Below are positions 26,178 to 39,427 of a stretch of DNA of 39,427 bases, in pieces. Within the stretch, counting starts at the first letter, position 1. Every line of letters starts with the position of its first letter. Origin of the DNA: Caldilineaceae bacterium (GTDB taxonomy: Bacteria; Chloroflexota; Anaerolineae; Caldilineales; Caldilineaceae); NCBI GenBank assembly GCA_026989655.1, contig JALSIX010000143.1:1-39427 (forward strand), written 5' to 3'. Position numbers and translations under genes: made by a program. The notes beneath the pieces are model-generated. The model had not been told where the DNA came from, did no database searches, and saw only the letters and a program-made list of their open reading frames with translations.

Positions 26178-28940
26178 TCAACGGAAGAGCACGGGCATGT
26201 AGAGATAGGCTAGGTCGGAGACCAGCGTGGGCGCGGGGAAGGTGTCCGCCAGGAAGACCTCGGCCTGGGTGGGGACAGCGGCGGGCCGTTCCACCCGGAT
26301 GACCACGATGCTGTCCTCCTCCAGTGGATAGGAGCGACCGTCCTCCCAACGGGCGTTGCCCAGGTTGAGCACCCAGTAGCCCTGGGCGTCGGTCAGGGTG
26401 GACAGGGGCAGGCTTTCCCCTGCCCCCTGTGTCCGTAGTTCCAGCAGGACCCGAGCCCCTGCCACAGGGCGGTTCTCCCGATCGACCACCCGGCCGTAGG
26501 CAGACTGGCTCCGAGGGATCGTCTTGGGCACCGGGAGGGCCCTGATCTCGATCTCCTGCTCGTAGAAGGCCGTGGTCTCCTCGTCCCAGGCAATGGCCCG
26601 GAGGGAGTAGAGCGAGGACGGTTCCAGGCCGGTCACGGTCACATGGTGGAGCCGGGCCACGGTGCCCTCGCCCCGATCGTCGAAGAAGACGGCCAGGGGC
26701 TGTCCGTCCGCCAGGACCTCCACCCGGCTCTGGGTGGGCACCTCCGTGGTCCAGGTGAGGGTGAGGGCCGTGTCCCGCTGATTGGTGACCTGGAGATCGG
26801 CAATGGGTTGGCTCAGTGCTCCCTGGCCGCCCGGGAGGGGGGAGAGGGTCGTGGCGGGAAGGGTGGGGCGCCGTACGCCCGGTGTGGCCGAATCGGCCTT
26901 GACAAAATAGCCCCGAGCTGTCGCCAGCTCGAAGTCGTTGATGCCCACATCGCACAGGTAGCCATCCCACCCGCTGTGCTGCCAACGGTCCACCTCCACC
27001 ACTCCGGCCTGGCAGAGATCCGAGGCCCGGTCCCGGATCCACCCGGTGGTGCCGATGCTGTTCCAGCCCACGGTGAACGAGGGCAGGGTGGTGGTGAGAG
27101 GCTGTCCTACCCAGAGGAGGGCACCGTCCATCTCCGCGCGCACGAAGTAGCCCACGTCCGGCTCCAGCGGGAAATCCTGGGAGGAAACGTCGCATACAAA
27201 GCTCTCCCAGCCGCCGTCGCGCCAACGGACGACCTCGGCCACCCCGCGAGCCGGATCTCTGTACAGAAGAGGCGAATCCAGCGGTTGCAGGTCCCGCAGC
27301 TCGCACAGACGGCTTGCAGTCAGGGGCACCACGGATTCCCCCGGGAGGGCCACGAAGTTCCATCCCGCGTCCATGAAGATCATCTGGCGCTGGGTGGCCT
27401 GTACGGTGACGATGTCCGACACGGGGGTGTCCTGGCCGGTGTCCACCACGGCGAACCCTCGCTCCATGGGGCTACACTGGATCTCGATCTCCACCTGGTC
27501 GCCGCTGGGGGAGTAGGTGAAGGGGGCCCGGAGATCCGCGGTGCGGGCGTTGCCCAGGTTCGCCGTCCATCTGCCCGTGTCGTCGGTGACGGCGGAGAGC
27601 AGCCCGGAGCGTCCGCTGCTGTCCTGGCCGTCCGCGTCCACTACCACCAGGAGCACCACACAGCCCTCGGCCGGGCTGCCGTCCGCGCGGAGGGCCCGCC
27701 CGTAGATGGTGTCGCTGGGGGGGATGGTGTCCAGCACCGGACCGGTGCGGCCGTTGTATTCGGGGCTTACCTGCTGACCCTGGGCGTTCATCAGGGTGAA
27801 GGGGTACAGGCGCTCGGGCTCCAGCCGGTCCACCTGGGCCCAGCGGGCCGTGTTGCCCCGTCCGGGAAACCGGTCGCTCCCGTCCTGGTTGTAGTCGGAT
27901 GTCAGGTAGACTCCGTCCGGGTCCTGAGACGGGGTCTCGTCCAGCCAGGTGACCACGAAGCTGGTGTCCCGCACGTTGCTCACCACCACGTGGCTCCGGG
28001 AGGGCCAGGTGGGCAGAGGTGTGGGGGTGGGCGTGACAAAGGGTGTGGGCGTTGGGGTGGGTGTGGGTGTTGGGGTGGCGGTGGGCGTGGGCGATGTCCC
28101 CTGGATGTAGCTCTGGATCCAGGGGATGAAGCGGGAGACCCGGGTGTAGACGCCGTAGTAGTTGGGCTGGGCACAGTCGTAGCCCCAGCTCACAATGCCT
28201 GCCTGCACCCATCCCTCGCCACCGGGACCGGGCACCATGAGCGGCCCTCCGCTGTCCCCCTGGCAGGAGTCCTTGCCCCCCTCGGGGTAGCCCGCGCACA
28301 TCATGTTGTCCGTGATCTGGCCCGGGTAAGCAGCGCCACAGACCTGGGCCGAGACGATGGGCACGGAGACCTGCATGAGCGCGTCCGCGTAGGTGCCTGT
28401 CTGGCCGTTCTGCCGGGTGTCTCCCCAGCCGATGACCGTGGCCAGCACGCCCGGCGCGGTGAGGAGGGTATCTCCTTCAGGGACCAGGGGAATCGGCGGG
28501 TAGCTGGCCGCCTGGCTCAACTGGAGCAGGGCCAGGTCCGAGTCCAGGGTGGTGTTGTTGTAGGCGGGGTGGACGGTGATCGCGGCCACGGGGATCCGTT
28601 GGCCGCCGCTGTCGCTCAGCCGGTGGCGCCCGAGGAGAACATCGATCTCCGCGGCATCCATCTCCTGGACACAGTGGGCCGCGGTCAGCACCCATTGGGG
28701 CGCGATCAGGGAGCCGCCACAGTACTGGCCCAGATAGGCGTTGGGCTCGTTCCTGAAGACCAGGGCGGCCATCCAGGGCCAGGCGCCGGGGGCGGCCTCG
28801 GTGCCGCCCACGATCTCCGGCGTGGAACGCCCGGCCCCCTGGGGCTCTGCAACCTGGGCCCGCAGGGCGGCCGCTGCCCATGCACCGTTCCACAGCACCG
28901 TGAGCAGAAGGGCGAGGAGGGCCAGTCTGGGACGGGACAT
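26178..28940 (-). CDS. secreted trypsin-like serine protease (S1A) with long modular C-terminal region
   Basis: A 920-residue exported protease. A signal peptide (about 1-29) and a short propeptide precede the activation site IVGG (43-46). The triad is His89 (LTAAHC), Asp135 (DSDLALLQL) and Ser230 (GDSGGPL). Asp224, six residues before the Ser, predicts trypsin-like cleavage after Lys/Arg. Cysteines are placed as in trypsins. A Thr-Pro linker (284-310) leads to beta-rich modules: two fibronectin-III-like stretches (from about 315 and about 690) around two copies of a GWN...C...GYFV repeat (about 535-690). The frame opens at 29015, but AAGGTG lies 6 bases before ATG 28940. No sortase motif or other anchor is seen. 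Confidence 0.9.
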   Translation of the reverse strand: MSRPRLALLALLLTVLWNGAWAAAALRAQVAEPQGAGRSTPEIVGGTEAAPGAWPWMAALVFRNEPNAYLGQYCGGSLIAPQWVLTAAHCVQEMDAAEIDVLLGRHRLSDSGGQRIPVAAITVHPAYNNTTLDSDLALLQLSQAASYPPIPLVPEGDTLLTAPGVLATVIGWGDTRQNGQTGTYADALMQVSVPIVSAQVCGAAYPGQITDNMMCAGYPEGGKDSCQGDSGGPLMVPGPGGEGWVQAGIVSWGYDCAQPNYYGVYTRVSRFIPWIQSYIQGTSPTPTATPTPTPTPTPTPFVTPTPTPLPTWPSRSHVVVSNVRDTSFVVTWLDETPSQDPDGVYLTSDYNQDGSDRFPGRGNTARWAQVDRLEPERLYPFTLMNAQGQQVSPEYNGRTGPVLDTIPPSDTIYGRALRADGSPAEGCVVLLVVVDADGQDSSGRSGLLSAVTDDTGRWTANLGNARTADLRAPFTYSPSGDQVEIEIQCSPMERGFAVVDTGQDTPVSDIVTVQATQRQMIFMDAGWNFVALPGESVVPLTASRLCELRDLQPLDSPLLYRDPARGVAEVVRWRDGGWESFVCDVSSQDFPLEPDVGYFVRAEMDGALLWVGQPLTTTLPSFTVGWNSIGTTGWIRDRASDLCQAGVVEVDRWQHSGWDGYLCDVGINDFELATARGYFVKADSATPGVRRPTLPATTLSPLPGGQGALSQPIADLQVTNQRDTALTLTWTTEVPTQSRVEVLADGQPLAVFFDDRGEGTVARLHHVTVTGLEPSSLYSLRAIAWDEETTAFYEQEIEIRALPVPKTIPRSQSAYGRVVDRENRPVAGARVLLELRTQGAGESLPLSTLTDAQGYWVLNLGNARWEDGRSYPLEEDSIVVIRVERPAAVPTQAEVFLADTFPAPTLVSDLAYLYMPVLFR
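28011..28094 (-). repeat. low-complexity Thr-Pro repeat tract in the protease gene
   Basis: This GT-rich tract (plus-strand view) encodes alternating Thr-Pro, broken by TAT and FVT. It forms an extended, probably glycosylatable linker between the protease domain and the C-terminal modules. Short tandem repeats of this kind can change length by slippage. Confidence 0.8.
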
Positions 28941-29029
28941 TGGGAACACCTTGAGATGGCTCGGGGGAAGGAAGAAGGAACACGTGACGGCCCTGGGGCC
29001 GCCCACCCTCTTCAACGATGTCCTCTTCC

Positions 29030-29650: not shown

Positions 29651-29681
29651 CGGGACATGCCCGGTGGACCGGGCGCTGCTG

Positions 29682-29754
29682 TACGCCCGGCAGGATTTGA
29701 ACCTGCGACCTCTTCCTCCGCAGGGAAGCGCTCTATCCACTGAGCTACGGGCGC
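29682..29754 (-). tRNA. tRNA-Arg, anticodon GCG
   Basis: A full cloverleaf can be drawn. The acceptor is GCGCCCG/CGGGCGT with a G-U at the end pair, and the D-arm is GCTC...GAGC. The anticodon stem is CTTCC/GGAAG with loop CTGCGGA, and the T-arm is GCAGG-TTCAAAT-CCTGC. The discriminator is A and the CCA end is not encoded. Anticodon GCG reads CGC directly. Most bacteria instead use an ACG (inosine) tRNA for this box. Confidence 0.93.
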
Positions 29755-29758
29755 AAAA

Positions 29759-29854
<96 letters not shown>

Positions 29855-29879
29855 ACACGTTCGATTGGAGGCAAGCGTC

Positions 29880-29969
<90 letters not shown>

Positions 29970-31025: not shown

Positions 31026-33353
31026 ATGGTGGGCCCTCTCAGGACTGTCCATGGAACCATGAACCGCGGGAAACGCTCTCAGGGTGTCGTTCGAGTGTCC
31101 AAGGCGCTGATGGAAGAGCTTCTGTGGGTCCAGGTGGAACGGCCTCTCCAGGGATATGTCCAGGTCCGGCTCCCGGATGGCCGGCCCGGCGTGATCCATC
31201 GTCGGGAGATGTCCCTGGAACAGGATCGGGATCCACGGACCCTGGTCCGCCCGGGGCAACGGATCCTGGCCCAGGTCATCGGGGTCACGGAGAGCGGACG
31301 CAGCGTGGCCCTCAGCCACCGGCAGACCCTGGCCGATCCTTGGGAGGCCTTTGTCCAGCGCCATCAAGAGGGCGATGTGGTCCACGGGTGGGTCAAGGGC
31401 ATCGAACCACAGGGCGTGTATGTGGCCCTCCAGCCCGGCATCGACGGGCTCATCCCACGGCGGGAGCTGGCCCCCTGGCCGGTGGCACGCCTGGAGGACG
31501 TGCTCCGGGTGGGGGACTCGGTGGAGGTGGTGATCGTCGCTATCCGCCCCACCATCCGCCAGGTGGACCTGAGCCTTCGGGAGCGGGTGCTCCGGGACCA
31601 CCGCGGCCGTCGGCTGGCCCAGGAGCTGGGGGTGCGGGAGGACGGCCCCGGGCTGTTCTGCCACCGGGTTCGGCGGCACCCTCCCGCGCTTCCCCAGTTG
31701 CTCCTCCTGGAGGACCACCTAGATCTGGCCAAGGGATTCGCCCGGTGGGTCCAGGCACGGGGATGGGATGTGCGCCTCAACATCTCGCTGGCCGAGGCCC
31801 AGAAACTTCTCCCCAACTCCGGGCCCTGTCCCTTCGACGCCGTTCTGGTGGACGTGGGCCTGCCCGACGGCAGTGGGCTCCATTTCCTGGAACAGCTTCG
31901 AAAGCGCTGGCCCGAGATCCCAGCGGCGGCCACCAGCACTCCGGATCGGCTGGCGAGCGCAGCGGCCCGGCTCCAGGAAATGGGGGTGGAGTGGACCTTC
32001 CCCAAGCCCTGGGATTCCCAGGAGCTGCTGGCATGGCTCGACTCCCTCCGGGCGGAGGCAGGCGGAGCTCCTCCGAGGGCCCTCGAATCTGGGGCCCGGA
32101 ACGTACGGGACCCGGAACCGTTCTCCCCGCTGGAGGTGCCGTCGGAGGCATGGGAGCTGGCGAATGTCCAGCAGATCCTGGAAGAGACCTGTCGGGCCGT
32201 GAAGGCCGACGCGGGACTGGTGGCCCGCCTGCTTCCTGCCCGGGATCGGGTGGAGCTCATCGCGGCCTGGGGACGAGTTCCCCAGGAGATGGCCCCGTGC
32301 CGCCTCCTGGCAGACAGCCCCGTGGGCGACGTGATCCGGGAGGGAACATTGCTCTTCGAACGCCAGGCCGCCCGAGGTCCTCGTCGGAACTACTTCGCCA
32401 ATCTCCTACGCTGTCTGCCCTTCGAGTCCTGCATGGGGCTGCCTGTCCGGGGGACATATCGACCGGTCCATGCTCTCTTCGTCTTCCACCGGGATCCGGG
32501 CCGCTTCTCCCGACGCCATCTGCGGAGGCTTCTGGCCCAGGCCACGGTCCTGGCCGGTGCCCTGGATCGAAAGGCCTTCAGCCGCCTGTTGGAGGCCCAC
32601 AGCCAGGTCATGTTGGCCGGTTGGCTCGCGTCCGCTGCGGTCCACGAGATGGCCAATGCCGTGAACGCCATGGACGTGGCCCTGGCCAACCTGGAACCCC
32701 TCCTCCACTCCCGGTCTTCGGTGGATGAGGGGATCCAGGCCGAGATCGCGGTCCTCCAGCACAATGTCCAGGCCTTGAGACATCTCCTGGAGGGCTTCGG
32801 TGGGTTGGCTCCCCAGCAGCGGGAGCGGCCGGTGGCCCTCCACGAGCTCCTGAGACGGCTCCATGGGGTCCTGCGTCCTCTGGCCGCCCGGGAACAGGTA
32901 CGTCTGGAGTTCGTGCTGGACCCGGGCCTGTCCCGATGGCGGGTGCGGGGCTCGGCCATGGCCGTCTGCCAGATCCTGTTGAACCTGGCCTTGAACGCGG
33001 TGCAGCAGATGGCCGATCTCCCCCCTGTGGGAGAGTGGCGCGGAGTCCTGGGGGTCCGGGCCGTCCTGGTGGATGGGGGCGAGGGCCCACAGCTCCTGCT
33101 CCAGGTGGAGGACACCGGGCCAGGCGTCCACGCGGAACACCGCGACCATATCTTCGAGCCGGGCTTCACCACCCGGCCTGGGGGCTCCGGTCTGGGGCTT
33201 GCCATCGCCCGCAGCCTGGCCACTTCCTTGGGGGGGCAGGTTTGGCTGGAGGAGAGCCTGCCCCTGGTGCGTACGGTCTTCCAGGGGCTCCTGCCCCTGG
33301 AGCCCGTCTCCGTGTTCCTGGTGGATCCAGAGGGATCGGAGGGAGAGCCATGA
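31026..33353 (+). CDS. hybrid sensor histidine kinase with two S1 RNA-binding-type domains (S1-S1-REC-GAF-HisKA-HATPase)
   Basis: A 775-residue cytoplasmic protein. S1 domain 1 is about 32-99 (GYVQVRLPDGRPGVIHRREM, GRSVALSHRQ). S1 domain 2, about 107-187, is canonical (EGDVVHGWVKGIEPQGVYVA, GLIPRREL, VDLSLRER). A receiver at about 223-343 has Asp276 (LVDVGLPDGSG) and Lys327 (FPKPW). A GAF-like domain follows (about 372-517). The H-box has His540 in AAVHEMANAVNAM, then the ATPase with N-box Asn657, DTGPG (696-700) and GGSGLGLA (719-726). All catalytic residues appear intact. No membrane segment. Start: GGAG precedes ATG 31026; ATG 31059 is an alternative. It overlaps the next gene by ATGA. The fusion is unlike standard two-component kinases; RNA binding is inferred from the S1 fold. 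Confidence 0.88.
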   Translation: MVGPLRTVHGTMNRGKRSQGVVRVSKALMEELLWVQVERPLQGYVQVRLPDGRPGVIHRREMSLEQDRDPRTLVRPGQRILAQVIGVTESGRSVALSHRQTLADPWEAFVQRHQEGDVVHGWVKGIEPQGVYVALQPGIDGLIPRRELAPWPVARLEDVLRVGDSVEVVIVAIRPTIRQVDLSLRERVLRDHRGRRLAQELGVREDGPGLFCHRVRRHPPALPQLLLLEDHLDLAKGFARWVQARGWDVRLNISLAEAQKLLPNSGPCPFDAVLVDVGLPDGSGLHFLEQLRKRWPEIPAAATSTPDRLASAAARLQEMGVEWTFPKPWDSQELLAWLDSLRAEAGGAPPRALESGARNVRDPEPFSPLEVPSEAWELANVQQILEETCRAVKADAGLVARLLPARDRVELIAAWGRVPQEMAPCRLLADSPVGDVIREGTLLFERQAARGPRRNYFANLLRCLPFESCMGLPVRGTYRPVHALFVFHRDPGRFSRRHLRRLLAQATVLAGALDRKAFSRLLEAHSQVMLAGWLASAAVHEMANAVNAMDVALANLEPLLHSRSSVDEGIQAEIAVLQHNVQALRHLLEGFGGLAPQQRERPVALHELLRRLHGVLRPLAAREQVRLEFVLDPGLSRWRVRGSAMAVCQILLNLALNAVQQMADLPPVGEWRGVLGVRAVLVDGGEGPQLLLQVEDTGPGVHAEHRDHIFEPGFTTRPGGSGLGLAIARSLATSLGGQVWLEESLPLVRTVFQGLLPLEPVSVFLVDPEGSEGEP

Positions 33354-36300
33354 ACGCCACAGGGACATCTCCGTCGGCCCGGGACTGCCAACACCCACCC
33401 CAGGTCCGGGTCCTGGTGGTGGACGACGAGCGCAGTTTCCGCGAGCCCCTGGCCCGCTGGCTCCACAAGCATGCCGGCTACCATGTGGTCCAGGCCGCCA
33501 CCGCAGCCGAGGCCCGAGAAGCGGTGGCCACGGCCGCGGCGCCCTTCCACGTGGCCCTGGTGGACGACGTGCTCACCCCCCAGGGCGAGGACGCGCCCTC
33601 CAGCGTCGGGATGGAGCTGGCCCAGGAGATCCGGGCCATTTCCCCGAACACAGAGGTGATCCTCTTCACCGGATGGGGGTGGGACCCGAAACGGGCCAAG
33701 GCCGCGCTGGACGCGGGCGTCTACCGGGTGCTGCACAAGCCCTTCTACGTGGAGGAGCTGAAGTTCATCATCGACCATCTGGCCGAGGTCCACCGACTTC
33801 GGGCCCACGCCGCGGAGGGGGAGCTGTTGCAGCGATTGCACGGCCTCTCCCGCCAGTTGTTCGCCCGGGAGGATACGCCACCCCTGGCGGAGCGCATCCG
33901 TGCGGTGTTGCGCCAGATCCAGGAACTGGGCTTCGACCGGGTACGCCTCTACCGCTACGATGAGGAGAGGCAGGAGCTGGAGGCCCTGGCCTGCGTGGGC
34001 ATGGGCGAGCGGGAAGCCATCTTCCAGGGGCTGCGCATCCCCCAGGTCCAGGACCCGTACCTCCAGCGGTTGCGAGAGGCTCGGGAGGCTGTGGTCTTCA
34101 CGGAGAGGGACCGACAGGCGGTGGACCGGCAGCCGCCGGGCTTCCAGGAGCTGGGGATGGCCCAGGTGCCCGAGTGGGCCTGTGTGCCCTTGCTCTACGG
34201 GGGCCGTTTCTGGGGCAAGATCGTGGTGGACAATCGCCGCGGCCAGGCCCCCATCGACCGGAGACAGCTTCGCCCCCTGGAGCTCTTCAGTGCCCAGTTG
34301 GCCGCGGTCCTGGCCTACGAGTCCTTGCTCCAGGAGAGCCGTCGTCGGGAGGCCCTGTTGGACGCGCTGGCGGAGGCAGCCCGGCACATCCGGGCCGAGC
34401 GGGATCCGAGCCGCCTGCTCCACGAGATCGTGAGCCAGGGAGTTCAGATCCTGGGGTGCCAGGTGGGGGATCTCTGGATCAACCGACCTGCTGTCCGGGA
34501 TCTGGAGCTGGTGGCTCAGGTGGGCCTGGACGCGGTGCCGCTGGGATACCAGGTGGTCTACGGACAGGGGTTGGTAGGCCGGGTGGCTGTGGAGGGCACC
34601 CTGATCCCGGTCCCGGACTACAGCCGGTGGGAGCACCGACATCCCGCGTTCGCGGATTGCGCCATCCACGCGTCCCTGGGTATCCCCATCCACACCCGAG
34701 ACGGCCAGGTAGAGCTCATCCTGTGTCTTGGACACACCGATCCCCATGCCCGGTTCGACGATGTGGACGTGGCGATCGCCCGTCGCTTCGCGGAGCAGGC
34801 CGGCATTGCCTGGACCAAGGCCCAGTTGCTCGACCACGAGGCCCGGGCCGCGGCTCGGACCCGGATCCTCAACCGCTATCACCGTTACCTGGAGGGATGC
34901 GAGGAGGAGCTCCGCATCCTCCATGCCCTGGCCACCTGCCTCACCGCGGACTTTGGCCTCCGCTTCAACCGGGTCGCCCTCTTCCGCTGGGAGGCCGGGG
35001 TCCAGGAGGAGGACACGGGCCATCTGGTGGGCCTGGTGGGGATCGGCCAGGTGGACCAGGAGGTCGCAGAGGAGATCTGGAAACGCCTGGGCCCGTGGAG
35101 CTTCGACGACTATCTCCGTACCGTCCAGGAGGGACCGTTGGCCCTGGAGGATCCCATCCACCGGCGGATCGAGGGGATCCGGATCGAAGGCGCGGGAGAG
35201 GCCGCGGAGGACCACGTGCTCCAGGCCCTCCACACCCGGAGTCCCGTGGTGGTGGGGCCGGAGGAGCTCCACCGCCTTCCCGCGGCCCTGGTGACGGCCT
35301 TCGAGCCCACCACCGAGGTGGTCCTGGCGCCCCTGGTCTCCCGGGAGCGGATCCTGGGCCTGGTGGTGGCGGACAACAAGTTCACCGGGTCGCCCATCAC
35401 CTCGGAGATCCAGGAGACCCTGGCCGCCTTCACCAGCACCACGGCCAGCGTGCTGGCGAACCTCCAGGCCCGCCGGGAGGCGGAACAGACCTCCCGTCAG
35501 CTCCAGGCCTTTCTGACCGCCCAGAACACCCTGGTCCAGGATACGGAGCCGGACACGTTGTTGGACACCCTGAGCGACAACGTCCGGGAGGCCCTGGAGG
35601 CTGATCGGATCCTGGTGGTCCTCTACCACCCCCGATCCGGCCCCTACCGGGGTCTGGTGCGTCCATGGCGGGAAGGTCGGAGACCCCCACCGCTGACGGA
35701 GATCGTTCGCCCCCATGGGCTCACCCACCAGATCGTCCAGGAGGGACGGCCCAGGGTCGTCCAGTATCCGGAGCCCGGCGAGGAGGGCCACCGACCGGCC
35801 CCCTATTTCGATGACATCCGCACGGCCCTGGGCATCCCCATGTTGCACCAGGGCCAGGTGGTGGGGGTGACCTGGGTCCAGTATCGGGAACGACGCTCTC
35901 CATCCACCCAGGTTCTCCAGGTGGCCCAGCTCCTGGTGGACCAGGTGACCACCGCCTATATAGACGTCCGCTGGGCCCACCGACTTCGAACCATGCAGCA
36001 GGCCCTGGAGCGGCTGGGCCAGGTGGAGCACCCGGAGGCGATCCTGCAGGTGGTGGTGGACCATGCTCGCCAGCTGGTCCAGGCCGATTCCGGTGTCCTC
36101 TATGTCTTCGATCCCGCGACCTGGGCCTTCGACTACGAACGCTCCGTCCACAGTGGGCTGGATCCGGAGCGGTGGCGTCGGTTGCAGGGCGTCAACTCCC
36201 TGCCCGACGCCACCGCGGAGCGGGTCCTCGCGACCGGCTGGCTGGAGGTGCCCTCGTTGGACGACTCCCGCGAGGGCTGGATGGGGGCAGCCACCCGGCA

Positions 36301-38233
36301 GGTGTTGGCGTCTCTGGGCGTCCACGGCTTCGTCGGTCTCGCGCTGCGGACTCCCCAGCTCCCTTTATTAGGGGTCCTCTACCTGCACTTTCGGAACCCC
36401 TATCTCCTGGACGAGGGCGACCGGATCCTGCTCCGTTCCCTGGTCGAACACGCCGCGAGTGCCCTGGAACGGACACGGCTTCTGGCCCGTCTGCGCCAGG
36501 TCCACGAGGCCAGCCGTCGGATCGCGGAGCTGGCCACTCGGGAACGGCTGGAGGAGACCCTGCGGGCTGTGGCCGAGGAGGTGTCGGCCATCCTCCAGGC
36601 CGACGCGGTGACCCTGTATCCCTACCACGAGGAGAAGCATCGGCTCAGCGCCCAGCCCATTGCGGTGGGCGTGCGGCACCCGGAGCGCATGCGGGAGGCC
36701 ACGGCGATCGACCCGGACTCCATTGTCTACCGGATGTTGGAACGGCGAGAGCCCTACTACACCGAGGGGGTGAGCCAGGATCCTCTGTTCCGGGGACGGC
36801 GTTTCACCCAGGAGGAGGAGATCCAGGCGCTGGCGGCCTTTCCCCTACGGGTGCACGGCCATCCGGTGGGCGTGATGTTCGTCAACTACCGGCGTCCCCA
36901 TCGCTTTGCCAGCACCGAGAAGGAGGACCTGACCCTGTTGGCCCACCAGGCCGCGGTGGTCATCCGCTCGGCCCAGGTCCGGGACCGGCTCCAGGAGCGA
37001 GCGCAGATGCTTCGCCAGTTGGCCGAGGCTGCCCGCCAGATCAGCGCCTCTCTGGACGTCCAGACGATCCTGGAGGGAGCGGTGCGCACGGCCGCGGAGA
37101 TCACGGGCACCTACGGACCTCGGGCCAAGCTGACCTTGGTGGCTCTGGAGGACGCGGAGCAGCCAGGCACCCTGGTCTTTCGGGCCGCGGAGCCCCCGGA
37201 TCTCTTGCCGGGCCTCCGAGATGGGGTGGGGCGGCTGCTGACCCCCGAGGCGCCCAGGCTGGGGCTCATCGGGCGCACTTTCCGGGAATGTGCCTCCCAG
37301 CGGGTGGACGACGTCCGCAAGGATCCGGACTACATCTGCGTGGATGAGACCATCCGCTCCGCGTTGGCCGTGCCCATCGCGGTGGGCGATCGGGTGTTGG
37401 GCGTGTTGGGTGTGGAGTCGGACCAGATAGGGGCCTTCGACGAAGAGGATCAGGAGGCCCTGGAGCTTCTGGCCGCGGAGATCGGGGTGGCCCTGGAGAA
37501 CGCCCGCCAGTACCGGGAGCTCCAGGAGGCCAAAGGGCTGCTGGGCCAGCGCACCCTCCTGGCCTGGGCAGGCATGGCCGACAACCTGTGGCGACACACC
37601 AACGCGAAACAGGCCCTGGTCATCCGGGAGACGGCCGGGCTGATCGGCCAGGAGCTGGAGTCCTGGGGATCCTCCGAGCCCCTGGAGCAGATCCGGAAAT
37701 GGCTGCAGCGGATCGAGAAGGCTGCCTGGAACATCCAGAACCGCCCCACCCTGTCTCCTCCCAACCCCGAGGACGTGGAATCCGTTGAGCTGGTCTCCCT
37801 GGTGGCCCACCGGATCCGGATCCTGCACCGCAACCACCCCGCCTATCGGGTGGTTCGCTTCCGGCGCCCATCGTTCCAGGCCGTCTACACCCGGGCCCAT
37901 CCCGAGTGGCTGCGTCGGGCGCTGGACATCCTGGTGGACAACGCGCTGGACGCCACCATGAGGGTCAAGGCCCCTGAGGTCATCGTCTCCATTGCCCTGG
38001 AGTCGAGCTGGGCGGAGATCCGGGTCCAGGACAACGGGACCGGGATCCCGCCCGAGCTCCGGGACAAGATCGGACGGCGTTTTGCCATGAAGGCCGGGGA
38101 TGACGAGGGGCTGGGAATGGGGCTGATCATGGCCCAGGTCCTCCTGGAGGCCTACGGGGGCCAACTGCGCATCGTGGAGACCGGAGAACAGGGCACCACC
38201 ATGGCCCTGCGCCTGCCCATCTTCAGTGGATAG
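33350..38233 (+). CDS. giant REC-multi-GAF sensor protein with C-terminal HATPase
   Basis: A 1627-residue soluble protein. A receiver (18-145) has the acidic pair Asp25-Asp26, probable acceptor Asp73 (VDDVLTP), Thr107 and Lys130. About seven GAF domains follow: 178-325, 350-490, 520-705, 733-875, 893-1040, 1062-1207 and 1232-1385, joined by helical linkers. The dimerisation helix carries His1416 in LWRHTNAKQ, where the usual acidic residue after His is Thr. The HATPase is intact, with DNALDA (1530-1535), DNGTG (1561-1565) and GLGMG (1587-1591). It starts in an ATGA overlap with the S1-domain kinase, with GGAGGGAG upstream, so both are made together. Probable role is integration of many small-molecule or redox signals; none of the ligands can be named. 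Confidence 0.9.
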   Translation: MNATGTSPSARDCQHPPQVRVLVVDDERSFREPLARWLHKHAGYHVVQAATAAEAREAVATAAAPFHVALVDDVLTPQGEDAPSSVGMELAQEIRAISPNTEVILFTGWGWDPKRAKAALDAGVYRVLHKPFYVEELKFIIDHLAEVHRLRAHAAEGELLQRLHGLSRQLFAREDTPPLAERIRAVLRQIQELGFDRVRLYRYDEERQELEALACVGMGEREAIFQGLRIPQVQDPYLQRLREAREAVVFTERDRQAVDRQPPGFQELGMAQVPEWACVPLLYGGRFWGKIVVDNRRGQAPIDRRQLRPLELFSAQLAAVLAYESLLQESRRREALLDALAEAARHIRAERDPSRLLHEIVSQGVQILGCQVGDLWINRPAVRDLELVAQVGLDAVPLGYQVVYGQGLVGRVAVEGTLIPVPDYSRWEHRHPAFADCAIHASLGIPIHTRDGQVELILCLGHTDPHARFDDVDVAIARRFAEQAGIAWTKAQLLDHEARAAARTRILNRYHRYLEGCEEELRILHALATCLTADFGLRFNRVALFRWEAGVQEEDTGHLVGLVGIGQVDQEVAEEIWKRLGPWSFDDYLRTVQEGPLALEDPIHRRIEGIRIEGAGEAAEDHVLQALHTRSPVVVGPEELHRLPAALVTAFEPTTEVVLAPLVSRERILGLVVADNKFTGSPITSEIQETLAAFTSTTASVLANLQARREAEQTSRQLQAFLTAQNTLVQDTEPDTLLDTLSDNVREALEADRILVVLYHPRSGPYRGLVRPWREGRRPPPLTEIVRPHGLTHQIVQEGRPRVVQYPEPGEEGHRPAPYFDDIRTALGIPMLHQGQVVGVTWVQYRERRSPSTQVLQVAQLLVDQVTTAYIDVRWAHRLRTMQQALERLGQVEHPEAILQVVVDHARQLVQADSGVLYVFDPATWAFDYERSVHSGLDPERWRRLQGVNSLPDATAERVLATGWLEVPSLDDSREGWMGAATRQVLASLGVHGFVGLALRTPQLPLLGVLYLHFRNPYLLDEGDRILLRSLVEHAASALERTRLLARLRQVHEASRRIAELATRERLEETLRAVAEEVSAILQADAVTLYPYHEEKHRLSAQPIAVGVRHPERMREATAIDPDSIVYRMLERREPYYTEGVSQDPLFRGRRFTQEEEIQALAAFPLRVHGHPVGVMFVNYRRPHRFASTEKEDLTLLAHQAAVVIRSAQVRDRLQERAQMLRQLAEAARQISASLDVQTILEGAVRTAAEITGTYGPRAKLTLVALEDAEQPGTLVFRAAEPPDLLPGLRDGVGRLLTPEAPRLGLIGRTFRECASQRVDDVRKDPDYICVDETIRSALAVPIAVGDRVLGVLGVESDQIGAFDEEDQEALELLAAEIGVALENARQYRELQEAKGLLGQRTLLAWAGMADNLWRHTNAKQALVIRETAGLIGQELESWGSSEPLEQIRKWLQRIEKAAWNIQNRPTLSPPNPEDVESVELVSLVAHRIRILHRNHPAYRVVRFRRPSFQAVYTRAHPEWLRRALDILVDNALDATMRVKAPEVIVSIALESSWAEIRVQDNGTGIPPELRDKIGRRFAMKAGDDEGLGMGLIMAQVLLEAYGGQLRIVETGEQGTTMALRLPIFSG

Positions 38234-39277: not shown

Positions 39278-39427
39278 ATGACAGATGCTGAAGCCCTACC
39301 TCGGGCGCTCATCCTCTATGTGGACAACGACGAGGCCTTTCTCCAGACCCGGGCCGAATACCTGGAGCAGGCCGGCTACCAGGTGGTCCCCGCGCACACC
39401 GTCGAGGACGCCCGCGAGCTCTTCGAG
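39278..39427 (+). CDS. response-regulator receiver protein, N-terminal part (right edge)
   Basis: The first 50 residues of a receiver domain: ALILYVDNDEAFLQTRAEYL with the acidic pair Asp16/Asp18 (VDND), then EQAGYQVVPAHTVEDARELF. It resembles the membrane-anchored receiver protein upstream in this part (both have DND and an E-Y-L-x-x-A-G-Y pattern). AAGGAG lies 11 bases before the ATG, just after the inverted-repeat element. The rest of the gene, including any output domain, is outside the window. Confidence 0.88.
   Translation, partial: MTDAEALPRALILYVDNDEAFLQTRAEYLEQAGYQVVPAHTVEDARELFE

Follow-up and report, generated by a model that had tools for sequence, protein, structure and literature searches.

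A histidine kinase with a ribosomal protein S1-like front end is the first gene of a conserved phosphosignalling operon in Chloroflexota

Introduction

Phosphosignalling is tied to RNA in response regulators whose output is RNA binding, for example those of the ANTAR type, and bacterial sensor kinases that read RNA or ribosomes directly are considered few. The present study concerns a gene for a protein, hereafter the S1 kinase, in which two S1 domains precede a receiver (REC), a GAF domain and a histidine kinase core in a single chain. It is carried by a 39,427-nucleotide stretch of Caldilineaceae (Chloroflexota) DNA, hereafter the window (contig JALSIX010000143.1 of assembly GCA_026989655.1, positions 1 to 39,427, forward strand). 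While RNA binding constitutes the output of ANTAR-type regulators, it would represent an input in the S1 kinase.

Among hybrid proteins in which a receiver stands before the kinase core, LvrB (PDB 8vc9) was the top full-length Foldseek match. Like the S1 kinase it carries its REC domain upstream of the DHp and HATPase domains; the window protein differs through the addition of an S1 pair in front and of a GAF domain between REC and kinase. A second point of comparison is provided by the predicted bacterial conflict systems, in which Kaur et al. described EAD, TCAD, TRADD-N, CHAT and caspase parts (PMC7159879; PMC8195603). Receivers but no histidine kinase domains were reported among the vWA-associated effectors of such systems (Kaur et al. 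2020; PMC7159879), and TCAD9 and EAD7 have been described as associated with vWA-MoxR-VMAP systems (PMC10910872). The output genes of the operon to which the S1 kinase belongs resemble these systems (PMC7159879; PMC8195603) in carrying TCAD9, EAD7, CHAT, caspase, TIR and TRADD-N-associated two-transmembrane domains, whereas the core of the operon consists of two histidine kinases. S1 domains themselves have been placed in a predicted conflict context in the TERNS3 systems, where OST-HTH is fused to multiple S1 domains (Kaur et al. 2021; PMC8195603); there they are part of OST-HTH effectors, whereas in the window protein they form the front end of a kinase.

The original prediction, which was made from the sequence alone, held that no standard two-component architecture of this kind is known. 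This holds for the open-licence papers searched, among which no S1-REC-GAF-kinase fusion was found, description elsewhere being possible; within the literature searched, the S1-S1-REC-GAF-kinase architecture appears to be previously undescribed. The larger finding, which the original prediction did not contain, is that the gene belongs to a conserved multi-gene phosphosignalling operon with outputs of the conflict-system type.

Domain organization and conservation of the S1 kinase

The gene and its domains are arranged as follows:

31026..33353, + strand: S1-S1-REC-GAF-histidine kinase gene, 776 codons including the stop when read from the ATG at 31026
31113..31334, + strand: first S1 domain, like domain 3 of ribosomal protein bS1 (approximate boundaries; Pfam S1 match at 31158-31322)
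31362..31580, + strand: second S1 domain, like bS1 domain 4, connected to the first by a bS1-typical DPW linker
31701..32036, + strand: receiver domain (Pfam Response_reg, residues 226-337, 1.3e-10)
32166..32567, + strand: GAF_2 domain (Pfam, residues 381-514, 2.4e-7)
32600..33299, + strand: histidine kinase core, with DHp helices bearing the invariant His (32643-32645) and HATPase_c at 32958-33299

The frame at 31026-33353 (+) is open throughout, with zero internal stops. An in-frame ATG at position 31059 is the likelier start, because the lengths and start positions of relatives agree better with it; the frame originally predicted was therefore retained, with a start (31026) that is probably too early. 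Pfam scored two S1 copies (protein-level value 5.6e-20, with residues 113-185 as the best copy), the first of which exceeded the curated threshold when the genome was scanned, together with REC, GAF_2 and HATPase_c (residues 645-758, 8.1e-16), leaving the dimerisation helices (HisKA) as the sole domain of the window protein without a Pfam score. NCBIfam scored the protein as 30S ribosomal protein S1-like in its first part and as sensor kinase-like in its last. The occurrence of an S1 tandem, receiver, GAF domain and kinase in one frame, as first proposed, is confirmed by the Pfam matches, the unbroken open reading frame, the predicted fold and the homologues.

The catalytic residues are strongly conserved. 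The phospho-acceptor His, located within the motif VHEMANAVN, is invariant in 24 of 24 aligned members, as are the N-box Asn pair and the DxGxG motif in every member whose sequence covers them, which, with the HATPase_c match, bears out the intact H-box, N-box and G-boxes noted at the outset. The receiver had likewise been described as complete: its phospho-Asp and Lys are invariant in all 23 members covering them, the T/S position is retained in 22 of the 23, and the acidic pocket of the window protein reads ED.

The family comprises 27 members that are complete, extending from S1 to HATPase, and 7 that are truncated where their contigs end, each locus being counted once, and its members are 25-34% identical to the window protein. 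The full-length relatives recovered by searching related genomes showed 26-33% identity. Its distribution is scattered across Chloroflexota and includes three metagenome-assembled genomes labelled Acidobacteria. A profile search of 396 genomes of the window's class returned approximately 22 members at 476 to 1121 bits and one contig-cut member at 346 bits, the next match scoring 220 bits, and further members were found in another class of Chloroflexota. A scan of the whole GTDB with an alignment query yielded 12 named loci, the three Acidobacteria-labelled genomes among them; as its patterns miss a more divergent subgroup, the true range may be wider. S1-less REC-GAF-kinases were also caught by the profile, and are assigned, on gene context, to a different family because their neighbours are ordinary REC or REC-winged-helix genes and not the S1-kinase cluster. 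One locus (L116 8377-9147, G123) encodes a truncated member with two S1 domains and the start of a receiver only, lacking kinase and operon, and is probably a decayed copy.

In a draft assembly such as that of the source genome (150 contigs), two separate genes might have been joined by sequencing or assembly, and the original prediction had itself named a missed frameshift as a possible refutation. The survey of genomes which it proposed found the same fusion in 34 members from independent assemblies, so that such an artefact is considered extremely improbable. Frameshift or misassembly is ruled out by homologues with the same fused frame, and the notion of a single-genome oddity was rejected in view of the 27 complete members.

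Origin of the tandem S1 module

The first 198 residues of the window protein match Escherichia coli bS1 at 2.9e-35, with the bS1-type DPW interdomain linker. In AlphaFold models the S1 region reached a predicted local distance difference test (pLDDT) score of approximately 90 within the full protein (13 sequences) and of 91 when the pair was folded alone (14 sequences); the full-length model, with a predicted template modelling score of 0.50, is of moderate confidence outside the S1, GAF and HATPase regions. Foldseek matched the pair to bS1 in a 30S mRNA-delivery complex and to domains 3-4 of Vibrio bS1, with which VIA-align superimposed it over its whole length (Z 16.6; root mean square deviation 4.9; 169 residues). 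The assignment of the region to two OB/S1 barrels is well supported by these models, and the non-OB fold that would have contradicted the original prediction was not obtained.

In the best tree of S1 tandems, a single change separates those of the kinases from those of 51 bS1 proteins, a grouping that is present in 72% of bootstrap trees. Moreover, the divergence of the S1 tandem follows that of the remaining protein (r 0.94, Mantel p 0.0002). The fusion therefore looks old and co-inherited, in keeping with a single old S1-kinase fusion that has been passed on as a unit. The sequence comparisons and models are best explained if the tandem derives from a pair of domains of ribosomal protein S1. 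With bS1 domains 3-4, and with S1 proteins of the GSP13/CvfD type, the module shares two S1 OB folds, the D/NPW linker and the tandem geometry; it differs from bS1 in its fusion to REC-GAF-kinase, in its altered RNA-contact residues and in the absence of the remaining bS1 domains. The window protein is not itself a bS1, proteins of that kind having four to six S1 domains and no kinase where it has two S1 domains and a kinase, and the same genome encodes separate four-S1 proteins on contigs C26 and C145. A 327-amino-acid frame on contig C46 of the window's genome, G000 (L002), encodes a free-standing protein whose two S1 domains are canonical (F, F and H retained) and which offers a natural comparison for the S1 pair of the kinase.

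Operon structure and output proteins

The genes that follow the S1 kinase in the window are listed below:

33350..38233, + strand: second gene, REC-GAF array (7 matched stretches)-HATPase kinase, 1627 amino acids
38354..39109, + strand: third gene, REC with a coil and two apparent transmembrane segments, 251 amino acids
39278..39427, + strand: fourth gene, truncated at the contig end after its first 150 nucleotides, REC-(degenerate APH/TCAD9-like)-OmpR winged helix

The S1 kinase gene is the first gene of a conserved operon, the ATG of the second gene overlapping its stop codon (33351-33353) in the window. The next gene encodes a large REC-multi-GAF-kinase in all 29 loci that could be judged. 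Each of the 25 loci whose sequence reaches further then encodes an output protein that carries REC and/or TCAD9, a short REC or REC-membrane gene sometimes intervening. The H-box of the multi-GAF kinase, inspected by eye, is seemingly unusual in the window, G049 and G056, where W-R/M-H stands instead of HE/HD; that of G011 has a normal-looking AHDI box.

The fourth gene is complete on another contig of the window's genome, C13 of G000 (L202; 971-2989, 672 amino acids). Contig C13 has two stretches in common with the window, one of 99 nucleotides where the second kinase gene ends (window 38135-38233) and one of 126 nucleotides at the window's end (39302-39427), and holds its own REC-membrane gene (approximately 270 amino acids), scored as REC plus CyanoTRADDas_TM. 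The two contigs form an assembly bubble, in which two different REC-membrane genes (251 versus approximately 270 amino acids) precede the REC-TCAD9-like-winged-helix gene; the pair may reflect either a tandem arrangement or variation between strains.

The C-terminal module of the output protein differs between genomes, being an OmpR winged helix, TIR, caspase or CHAT. Besides REC-TCAD9-winged-helix proteins, REC-TCAD9-TIR occurs in L095 (TIR, 2.3e-23), REC-TCAD9-caspase in L198 (8.9e-20) and TCAD9-CHAT in L092 (8.8e-11), while in G323 (L082) the output slot is occupied by EAD7-REC-CHAT. His/Cys catalytic motifs are present in the caspase (SGHG/DACH) and in the CHAT domain of L092 (SGHG/NACYS). 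The catalytic motif HGDLHxxN of the APH-like/TCAD9 centre survives in part of the family, whereas the winged-helix versions, that of the window's genome included, have lost it. In three loci the REC-membrane gene matches the TRADD-N-associated two-transmembrane family. Of the two traits by which vWA-MoxR ternary systems are recognized, TCAD-, EAD- or TRADD-N-type adaptors with TIR, CHAT or caspase effectors were found in the operon family; as to the other, an operon with vWA, MoxR ATPase and a third component, neither vWA nor MoxR was among the Pfam hits of the operon genes scanned, flanking genes having been scanned only in part. By eye, a gene near the operon of G208 (L212 858-3299) has a C-terminus resembling a CHAT protease end.

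Proposed role of the S1 kinase

We propose that the S1 kinase is a cytoplasmic sensor of RNA or translation state heading a multi-kinase phosphorelay with swappable effectors, a proposal whose chances we put at about even, and we infer the ligand of the S1 pair, the direction of phosphotransfer and the physiological role as follows. The protein is read as cytoplasmic because no membrane domain was found in the Pfam hits or the model. The tandem S1 module would serve as input, most likely reading RNA or the translation machinery (e.g., free mRNA, stalled ribosomes or damaged RNA), with REC and GAF supplying extra inputs in the form of phosphate from a partner kinase and a small molecule, respectively. 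The kinase core is predicted to autophosphorylate, and the phosphate would be passed to the REC domains of the multi-GAF kinase, the REC-membrane protein and the REC-TCAD9-type output protein. The response would be transcriptional in the window's genome, via the OmpR-type winged helix, and proteolytic or TIR-type in relatives. If true, this would connect the surveillance of translation or RNA with two-component signalling and with effectors of the cell-death type, providing a testable bridge between two fields usually kept apart, and the combination of S1 kinase, multi-GAF kinase and REC-TCAD9 would offer a genomic handle for finding more such systems.

Several observations weigh against this proposal. 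At the classical S1 RNA-contact positions, which we take to be F19, F22, H34, D64 and R68 in PNPase numbering, the window protein carries G/Q/H/T/R in domain 1 and Q/Y/P/R/R in domain 2, such that these residues are mostly replaced in both domains. Across the family, the His of position 34 is replaced by Arg in domain 1 and, in most cases, by Pro in domain 2, and the charge of the S1 tandem is near neutral, not basic. Neither the kinases nor the output protein matched a defence system in PADLOC, the sole match being a weak one (0.00047) over the REC domain of the REC-membrane protein of contig C13. Furthermore, the output of the window's genome is transcriptional and not a death effector: TIR, CHAT and caspase were found in relatives only, and the window's genome encodes, next to its REC-membrane protein, a winged-helix output whose TCAD9-like part is degenerate.

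The altered contact residues and near-neutral charge would also fit an S1 pair that does not bind RNA and instead acts as a protein-protein or dimerisation module positioning the kinase, for example by docking on the partner kinase or on ribosomal proteins, the true inputs being GAF and REC. The conserved domain-1 motif IRRREL, which is unlike the HxSE(L/M) of ordinary S1 domains, and the GAF arrays of the neighbouring kinase point the same way. Against such docking, 16 of 23 members retain an aromatic residue (F/Y) at position 19 of domain 1 and 20 of 23 do so at position 22 of domain 2, a basic residue occupies position 34 of domain 1 and position 68 of domain 2 in 22 of 23 members each, and the model keeps the entire bS1-like tandem geometry; we regard the docking explanation as possible, if somewhat doubtful. 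RNA binding by the S1 pair is plausible at the family level, because in domain 1 most relatives keep F/Y19 and have Arg instead of His at position 34, and the case for it is weakest, judged by these residues, for the window protein itself, in which the canonical contacts that are partly retained in relatives are mostly replaced. Of the link between RNA or ribosome binding and phosphosignalling that was originally envisaged, the presence of genuine bS1-type S1 domains on a complete REC-GAF-kinase stands, and the binding half is weakened by the replaced residues in the window protein.

As regards physiological role, the S1 kinase could be an ordinary two-component stress regulator whose S1 domains sense a nucleotide, DNA or polyphosphate, the cell-death-type outputs of relatives being later, unrelated recruitments that are uninformative on role. 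The winged-helix DNA-binding output of the window's genome and of many members agrees with this. Chance recruitment, however, explains poorly why TCAD9, EAD7, CHAT, caspase, TIR and TRADD-N-associated membrane domains recur in one operon context, and we hold this explanation to be unlikely. Returning to the sensor proposal, the presence of TIR, caspase or CHAT in the same slot in relatives points to a stress or invader (conflict) response as the probable function of the system. More tentatively, and with a chance that we rate as rather low, the operon may represent an undescribed two-component-driven class of conflict or programmed-death system, in which an S1-derived sensor of RNA or translation disturbance (e.g., phage infection) would phosphorylate swappable REC effectors (winged helix, TIR, caspase, CHAT or membrane).

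Other features of the window

Upstream of the operon lies a cluster of three tRNA genes (Arg, Ser and Ser) at 29681-29969 (-). The frame at 26178-29015 (-), inspected by eye, encodes a large trypsin-like protease that is predicted to be secreted and carries repeated modules at its C-terminus; it is ordinary-looking but long.
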